From: an uncultured Clostridia bacterium
Lineage (GTDB): Bacteria; Bacillota; Clostridia; Oscillospirales; Oscillospiraceae
Assembly: GCA_946186375.1 (NCBI GenBank)
Contig: CAMHMZ010000002.1
Span: 62,001 to 126,000, forward strand
Reading direction: 5' to 3'
DNA length: 64,000 bases
Shown: positions 10,825 to 31,603 of the stretch, one piece after another
Layout: every line of letters begins with the position of its first letter
Numbering within the stretch: position 1 is the first letter of the stretch
The notes under the pieces: model-generated
Told to the model about the DNA's origin: nothing
Database searches by the model: none
The model's input: only the letters and a program-made list of their open reading frames with translations
Program-made: the position numbers and the translations under genes

Positions 10825-10945
10825 CCAAATCGAAGCCCAGCGAAGCGGGTTCGATTTGGAAAAGGAAGAAGGACGCAGCGGATGTGCAGTTTTCGCGGCT
10901 ATTACGCAAACCGTGGAAACGGAACGCAGCTGCGTTCTTCTGACG
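10825..10945 (-). repeat. 121-bp tRNA-Leu-associated element, copy 1
   Basis: Minus strand CGTCAGAAGAACGCAGC...TTCTTCCTTTTCCAAATCGAACCCGCTTCGCTGGGCTTCGATTTGG; aligns without gaps to 31291..31411 (92/121 by hand count). Confidence 0.85.
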
Positions 10946-10949
10946 TTGG

Positions 10950-11537
10950 TGCGGGTAACAGGACTTGAACTCCCTGAAGGGACTAGGACGCCGCTGCGCG
11001 CCGTCCGTCGCTGCCGCTGCCCTCCGGGCAGGCAGAACCCAGTCAACCATTCCACGCACCAAAAGAGGAGCCGCCCAAAGGCGGCCCCTCTTCTGGTGCG
11101 GGTAACAGGACTTGAACTCCCTGAAGGGACTAGGACGCCGCTGCGCGCCGTCCGTCGCTGCCGCTGCCCTCCGGGCAGGCAGAACCCAGTCAACCATTCC
11201 ACGCACCAAAAGAGGAGCCGCCCAAAGGCGGCCCCTCTTCTGGTGCGGGTAACAGGACTTGAACTCCCTGAAGGGACTAGGACGCCGCTGCGCGCCGTCC
11301 GTCGCTGCCGCTGCCCTCCGGGCAGGCAGAACCCAGTCAACCATTCCACGCACCAAAAGAGGAGCCGCCCAAAGGCGGCCCCTCTTCTGGTGCGGGTAAC
11401 AGGACTTGAACTCCCTGAAGGGACTAGGACGCCGCTGCGCGCCGTCCGTCGCTGCCGCTGCCCTCCGGGCAGGCAGAACCCAGCCAACCATTCCCCGCGC
11501 CAAAAGAGGAGCCGCCCAAAGGCGGCCCCTCCGTTGG
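10950..11537 (-). repeat. Tandem array of four 147-bp units, each with a truncated tRNA-Leu 3' end and a terminator
   Basis: Starts of TGCGGGTAACAGGACTTGAAC at 10950, 11097, 11244, 11391 and in the intact tRNA at 11538, i.e. spacing 147 each time; each unit ends with AAAAGAGGAGCCGCCCAAAGGCGGCCCCTC. Confidence 0.97.
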
Positions 11538-11617
11538 TGCGGGTAACAGGACTTGAACCTGCACGGTTGCCCACTGGAACCTAAATCCAGCGTGTCTGCC
11601 AATTCCACCATACCCGC
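11538..11617 (-). tRNA. tRNA-Leu (TAG), CCA encoded at 11535-11537
   Basis: Reverse complement GCGGGTATGGTGGAATTGGCAGACACGCTGGATTTAGGTTCCAG...GGTTCAAGTCCTGTTACCCGCACCA; anticodon loop TTTAGGT. Confidence 0.95.
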
Positions 11618-31037: not shown

Positions 31038-31120
31038 GCCGGTGTGGTGGAATGGTAGACACCAGGGACTTAAAATCCCTTGCTGGCAACAGCGTACCGG
31101 TTCGAGTCCGGTCACCGGCA
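31038..31120 (+). tRNA. tRNA-Leu (TAA), CCA encoded at 31121-31123
   Basis: GCCGGTGTGGTGGAATGGTAGACACCAGGGACTTAAAATCCCTTGCTGGCAACAGCGTACCGGTTCGAGTCCGGTCACCGGCACCA. Confidence 0.95.
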
Positions 31121-31122
31121 CC

Positions 31123-31154
31123 AAAAAGAGCACCCCGTATGGGGTGCTCTTTTT
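31123..31154 (+). terminator. Terminator 1 downstream of tRNA-Leu(TAA)
   Basis: AAAAAGAGCACCCCGTATGGGGTGCTCTTTTT. Confidence 0.85.
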
Positions 31155-31271
31155 GGTCTCCGCCGGTGCGGGCGAGAACCGGAGCTTCGATAAGTGAGGC
31201 TCCGAGAAGACGAGCTTTGCGAAGTCTGATCGGCTAAGCCGAACTTATGCATGCGAGCGCAGCGAGTCGCT

Positions 31272-31289
31272 GTCCGGTCACCGGCACCA
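31272..31289 (+). repeat. Duplicated 3' end of tRNA-Leu(TAA)
   Basis: GTCCGGTCACCGGCACCA, identical to the last 18 nt of the tRNA including CCA. Confidence 0.9.
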
Positions 31290-31290
31290 G

Positions 31291-31411
31291 CGTCAGAAGA
31301 AACTTACTCCATTCCGCTTCCCTGGTTTCCGTAAGCGTCAGGAAAGCTCCATATCCGTAAGTTCCTTCTTCCTTATCCAAATCGAACCAACTGCGTTGGG
31401 CTTCGATTTGG
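31291..31411 (+). repeat. 121-bp tRNA-Leu-associated element, copy 2
   Basis: CGTCAGAAGAAACTTACTCC...TTCTTCCTTATCCAAATCGAACCAACTGCGTTGGGCTTCGATTTGG; same length as 10825..10945 and gapless alignment. Confidence 0.85.
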
Positions 31412-31444
31412 GTTTTGGGGAAACGATTTTTCTTTCCCCACAGC

Positions 31445-31474
31445 AAAGAGCACCCCGGACGGGGTGCTCTTTTT
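31445..31474 (+). terminator. Terminator 2 (duplicate of terminator 1 stem)
   Basis: AAAGAGCACCCCGGACGGGGTGCTCTTTTT. Confidence 0.85.
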
Positions 31475-31603
31475 GGTCTTAGCCGGTGCGAGCGAGAAAC
31501 GGAGCTTCGATCAGTGAGGCTCCGAGAAGACGAGCTTTATTGACAAACGCTCCGGGTTGTGATACAACGTGTCCGCATTGTTTTTACCTGTGGGGCTTTT
31601 GTG

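Follow-up and report, generated by a model that had tools for sequence, protein, structure and literature searches.

The window analysed here, a stretch of 64,000 nucleotides from an uncultured Clostridia bacterium, contains an intact tRNA-Leu(TAG) and an intact tRNA-Leu(TAA) gene, and at both loci a copy of one and the same element, called E below, is found (Table 1). Copy 1 runs from 10945 to 10825 on the minus strand, behind a CCA (10949-10947) and a single A at 10946, and copy 2 runs from 31291 to 31411 on the plus strand, behind a CCA (31287-31289) and a single G at 31290. In each case the adjoining tRNA sequence is a duplicated 3' end and not the intact gene. The surroundings are themselves repetitive. 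Upstream of copy 1, four tandem units of 147 bp fill 10947-11534 on the minus strand, each with the tRNA terminator at its start and a copy of the tRNA-Leu(TAG) 3' end at its finish. At 31125-31538 on the plus strand, a repeat unit with the terminator and a GGAGCTTCGAT..GTGAGGCTCC motif is present twice, 320 bp apart, and copy 2 is located between both units.

The initial annotation had described the two copies as gapless homologues with 92 of 121 identities, each starting 1 nt after a duplicated tRNA-Leu CCA and lying ahead of a copy of the terminator of its own locus. These observations hold: BLAST aligns all 121 positions without gaps (92/121, 76.03%), the single intervening nucleotide is read directly from the sequence at each locus, and the terminator copies lie about 8 nt past copy 1 and about 31 nt past copy 2. 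With an expect value of about 5e-20, the likeness is not due to chance. The arms of the 3' hairpin P3, CCAAATCGAA/TTCGATTTGG, are the same in both copies, as had been reported. A larger upstream pairing, P1, had gone unreported; it reads GAAGAACGCAGC/GCTGCGTCCTTC in one copy and GAAGAAACTTAC/GTAAGTTCCTTC in the other, and its covariation between the copies is more striking than that in P3.

Table 1. Features of the two tRNA-Leu loci and of the E copies within the window
Feature	Position	Strand	Remark
Element E, copy 1	10825..10945	-	5' end at 10945; cmsearch 136.9 bits
Copy 1 CGTC tag, unpaired	10942..10945	-	consensus, near-invariant columns
Copy 1 P1 5' arm	10929..10941	-	includes the A of the conserved A.C mismatch
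Copy 1 P1 3' arm	10867..10879	-	
Copy 1 P2 5' arm	10911..10920	-	
Copy 1 P2 3' arm	10889..10898	-	
Copy 1 P3 hairpin	10825..10859	-	
CCA of the duplicated tRNA-Leu 3' end ahead of copy 1	10947..10949	-	
Intact tRNA-Leu TAG gene	11535-11617		
Intact tRNA-Leu TAA gene	31038-31123		
Duplicated tRNA-Leu(TAA) 3' end ahead of copy 2	31272..31289	+	18 bp
Element E, copy 2	31291..31411	+	5' end at 31291; cmsearch 131 bits
Copy 2 P1 5' arm	31295..31307	+	
Copy 2 P1 3' arm	31357..31369	+	
Copy 2 P2 5' arm	31316..31325	+	
Copy 2 P2 3' arm	31338..31347	+	
Copy 2 P3 hairpin	31377..31411	+	

Architecture and spread of the E family

Element E is about 120 bp long and consists of an unpaired CGTC tag, a two-part hairpin (P1 and P2) and the separate 3' hairpin P3. 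P1, with twelve pairs and one internal mismatch, encloses P1b (two pairs) and P2 (nine pairs); in the consensus, which is devoid of terminal inverted repeats, CCT comes after P1. The tag forms alignment columns 1-4 and is at least 90% conserved, with TGTC and CCTC variants present. The covariation anticipated for the stems is indeed present, strongly and in all of them. Stem cells are paired in 93.7% of cases against 79.1% after shuffling, and double-changed cells number 460 against 124.8 in the shuffles, which do not remove the relatedness among copies; none of 500 shuffles reaches 460. In the slide control, which does keep this relatedness, moving the partner columns by 1-3 positions abolishes the covariation signal. 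The irregularities of the stem are conserved as well. The A.C mismatch of P1 is retained in 96 of 100 copies, and among the 26 copies unpaired at three inner positions of P1, 22 share the mismatch CTC/TCC.

A conserved peptide was considered and rejected: some copies carry a reverse-strand SD-like stretch with a short open reading frame (MQFSRLFRKPRKRNGASFF), the frame being broken in copy 2, L005 and L007. More generally, E and its complement yield long spurious reading frames at many loci (e.g. L107, L306). These join unrelated predicted proteins in clustering, and the recurring proteins adjacent to E are mostly the translation of E itself, so that such false frames can mislead annotation.

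The window's own genome holds ten matches to E at an expect value below 1e-6, and 48 of the 61 genomes of the genus contain at least one, with a maximum of 16 per genome. A covariance model built on 100 copies and used for the family and class searches, with at most 9-14 candidates scored per genome, detects the element in 191 of 301 genomes of the family, representing 82 of its 106 genera. Among 392 genomes drawn from the class, ten carry E, and in the seven that lie outside the family the same architecture is visible. The named matches in an exact-pattern scan are metagenome-assembled genomes (MAGs) assigned to Oscillospiraceae, Ruminococcaceae or Clostridia, many with a ruminant-gut label, and E was found neither in viral contigs by exact patterns nor in phage or plasmid records by BLAST. 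E is apparently a large repeat family of gut Clostridia that has not been described before; our search of the open-access literature found no earlier description from Firmicutes, which is not proof of novelty.

Docking at gene boundaries

The initial annotation regarded E as a small element tied to the 3' ends of tRNA-Leu genes. The existence of a defined element and its association with tRNA 3' ends are borne out, and the restriction to tRNA-Leu is not: E also lies behind tRNAs for Arg, Gly, Gln, Pro, Ser, Ala, Thr, Met, Cys and Asp, and other copies adjoin stop codons, the 5' ends of tRNAs and parS-like sites. Of the 137-139 copies with an intact 5' end, 43 begin no more than 5 nt past a same-strand tRNA 3' end, at offsets of 0, 1 or 3 nt, and forty further copies stand behind a CCA outside called tRNAs, many of which are duplicated tRNA ends. 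No tRNA-linked copy lies 6-30 nt behind its tRNA, and no tRNA 3' end faces the 3' side of E. Same-strand stop codons are approached with similar precision: 18 copies have offsets between -2 and +3 nt, and in 11 of these the offset is exactly 0. Five copies in the genus and six in the family abut tRNA 5' ends in reverse, and a tRNA end lies no more than 5 nt away from 22 of the 59 family copies. Three lineages (L076, L323, L339) have E abutting palindromes (GTTTCACGTGAAAC, GTTCCACGTGGAAC) which, judging by their motif, we take to be parS.

Homologues recovered by BLAST and the covariance model include many at tRNA 3' ends and a good part at no recognised boundary (35/137 genus copies, 33/59 family copies), fractions that are not genome averages, the genus loci having been picked by similarity to a tRNA-linked copy and the family loci by score. 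The empty interval at 6-30 nt is independent of this selection bias. The bases immediately upstream of E favour [AC][CT][ACG]A (54 contexts). No regular target duplication accompanies E; duplications of a gene 3' end, 43-49 bp long, bound it only at two loci, L080 and L081, and a diverged example, judged by eye, is present at L094.

Other causes of docking were considered. Gradual loss of spacer is disfavoured by the lack of tRNA-linked copies at 6-30 nt, and compactness of operons by offsets that pile up at 0 and leave the free window unfilled. RNA-primed copying from tRNA 3' ends leaves stop codons, tRNA 5' ends and parS unexplained.

Orthologous sites are variably occupied. Depending on the species, the spacer between tRNA-Arg(tct) and the next tRNA is bare and short, carries E directly at the CCA, or carries another palindrome. 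Two genes, which we read from their proteins as hgdB-like and kduD, likewise have stop codons followed by E in some species, by other hairpins in some and by nothing in others. A different short element, CGCCAGAGGGTGG..CCACCCTC, occupies the same place behind tRNA-Arg(tct) at L153, L157, L160, L168 and L169, and short perfect hairpins unrelated to E stand 0-2 nt behind the same stop codon at L172, L174, L181, L187, L189 and L191. Unrelated copies of E are found at the identical nucleotide position in different species, and of the 48 copies at recurring sites, 30 are most closely related to a copy at a different site and 18 to one at the same site. Such relationships are consistent with copies having repeatedly arrived at, or been replaced at, a single nucleotide position. 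Copies at different places within one genome reach at most 94-98% identity over the core, and no fresh transposition event was seen.

Folded DNA or RNA

The stems of E comprise 2,741 Watson-Crick cells, 435 of which differ from the commonest pair, against only 17 GU and 18 AC cells, counted over P1, P1b and P2 and, in type-I P3 hairpins, over the ten outermost pairs. The SRP RNA of the same genus gives 778 Watson-Crick, 137 GU and 2 AC cells, and tRNA acceptor stems give 423, 25 and 6. For the copies directly behind tRNAs the counts are 514, 3 and 2. In more distant alignments the Watson-Crick-only signal is weaker, with 53 GU against 25 AC; GU, at 2-3%, is about twice as frequent as AC and both are rare, in alignments fitted to the covariance model, a procedure that leans towards GU. 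Because strong covariation comes almost without G.U pairs, unlike in SRP RNA, these counts suggest that the constraint on the stems would act on a folded DNA strand and not on RNA, a constraint that the pairing tests assign to neither strand in particular.

The same counts bear on the proposal that E is a functional RNA in the trailers of tRNAs or mRNAs, co-transcribed with the preceding gene as a processing signal, sponge or regulator. Its orientation, which matches that of the tRNA in all 43 tRNA-3' cases, and its strong covariation are what such an RNA would show. However, GU is as rare as AC, each below 1%, even in the tRNA-linked subset, and G.U is not clearly tolerated above A.C as it is in SRP RNA and tRNA. 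Antisense placements exist at tRNA 5' ends and between convergent genes, orthologous tRNAs lack E in related species, and an Rfam search returned no described family, which together make a trailer RNA improbable. A further possibility, that E serves as a portable intrinsic terminator distributed behind genes, we consider scarcely credible. In its favour, P3 forms a hairpin where genes end and, in some copies (e.g. L005, L288, L295), precedes a T-run. Such runs, however, number 10 among 134 copies and 6 among 134 control windows, a comparison on which the terminator reading was rejected, and E is also found between tRNAs inside tRNA operons. Neither an RNA nor a terminator role for E is supported.

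Pairing of this kind could also arise if template switching during DNA replication copied one arm onto the other, leaving E as an inert palindrome with no selection on a folded strand. Multi-base Watson-Crick changes with few intermediates are expected from such events (PMC8794818), and the equal rarity of GU and AC agrees with this. Template switching would, however, erase mismatches, and because the A.C of P1 (96/100 copies) and CTC/TCC (22 of 26 unpaired copies) are kept, the arms are not simply copied in this way. As it also leaves the docking unexplained, we regard this explanation as unlikely.

A proposed mobile hairpin and its possible mobiliser

The reading we prefer, with a probability of roughly 55%, is that E is a non-autonomous, chromosomal, REP-like mobile DNA hairpin with an unusually precise target, moved by an enzyme acting in trans. 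It starts from direct observations, namely the family, its structure, its Watson-Crick covariation, its docking and its presence or absence at orthologous sites; from these we infer single-strand recognition, transposition and target choice. The enzyme would recognise E as a folded single DNA strand, and this recognition would keep the stems Watson-Crick and the irregularities fixed. It would insert E so that the CGTC end comes immediately 3' of a short and loosely defined target, [AC][CT][ACG]A (CCA, TGA, ACA). Such a site would frequently border on a tRNA gene, a stop codon or a palindrome of the parS type, and the host gene would stay intact. The inserted copy would have no evident function, and both window copies would be inserts at tRNA-Leu-derived CCA sites. 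Points against this reading are that the searches described below yielded no mobiliser, that neither regular target duplications nor fresh transposition events were seen, that GU outnumbers AC in the distant alignments, and that a loose tetranucleotide preference alone fails to explain docking at exact gene ends.

Candidate mobilisers were sought in the genomes. Y1 genes do not track the copy number of E, being present in 8 of 13 genomes without E and absent from the E-rich G043, G029, G049 and G060, with the caveat that MAGs are incomplete, and none of 30 Y1 loci has E nearby. RVT_1 genes do not track the copy number either. The search for Y2_Tnp gave no match in any genome, controls included, and carries no information. 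A serine recombinase gene (PF00239) ends directly before E in L016 (G036) and overlaps it in L067 (G049), which brings up the possibility that E is an attachment end or remnant of integrated, recombinase-bearing elements using tRNA 3' ends. The recombinase frame ends in GGTTCGGATTTGGATTGCCCCGGTGCACCA directly before E, and the same tail lies ahead of E at other loci; since other loci share it, integrated elements seem to have left those CCA ends behind as remnants. Many tRNA-linked copies are also flanked by tail modules that terminate in ACCA. Yet the gene occurs at two loci only, the E sites at stop codons, tRNA 5' ends and parS-like palindromes have no such tails, and searches of viral, phage and plasmid collections by exact patterns or BLAST found no E. 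We find this origin very improbable and read the two recombinase genes as separate integrations at tRNA ends.

Among described repeats, the nearest kind are the CGTC-tagged REPs, palindromes with no known transposase or mobiliser (Di Nocera et al. 2013, PMC3733652). E resembles them in its unpaired terminal CGTC with TGTC and CCTC variants, its palindromic nature, its many copies and its location downstream of coding regions, mostly beside gene 3' ends. The CGTC-tagged REPs are, however, 20-40 bp long, with stems of 8-9 bp, loops of 4-5 nt and a short unpaired CCA tail, and their description names no Firmicutes and no docking at tRNA ends (PMC3733652), whereas E is about 120 bp long, has two hairpin domains and a P1 of 12 pairs, and carries CCT after P1. 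Because it differs in size, stem, loop and tail, E is not filed with them, though it may work like one. GTAG REPs, whose termini often supply a stop codon (PMC3733652), are tagged hairpins beside stop codons as well, moved in trans by a single-strand transposase; E has another tag, and no RAYT/Y1 gene tracks it or is flanked by it. MITE-like repeats such as ERIC (127 bp) are similarly non-autonomous, intergenic and of comparable size, but E has neither terminal inverted repeats nor regular target duplications. In integron attC sites, a single DNA strand folds up with irregularities that are conserved, and the sites lie just behind stop codons, which is reminiscent of E. The core sites RYYYAAC/GTTRRRY (R''/R') are nevertheless missing from the ends of the E consensus, and E targets resident genes, not cassettes.

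Strong covariation should not by itself be taken to imply RNA. How G.U cells compare in number with A.C cells, judged against an established RNA from the same genomes, helps to separate DNA from RNA and could be examined before structured-RNA candidates are named. More tentatively, and with rather low confidence, E might serve as substrate for a hitherto undescribed clostridial system of single-strand DNA recombination, in which a recombinase acting in trans would insert the hairpin exactly at functional boundaries such as mature tRNA ends, stop codons and parS. We know of no other bacterial mobile repeat with such a boundary-targeting rule. Abundant, precise in its target and recurring at identical nucleotides in many species, E offers a tractable system for finding the enzyme.
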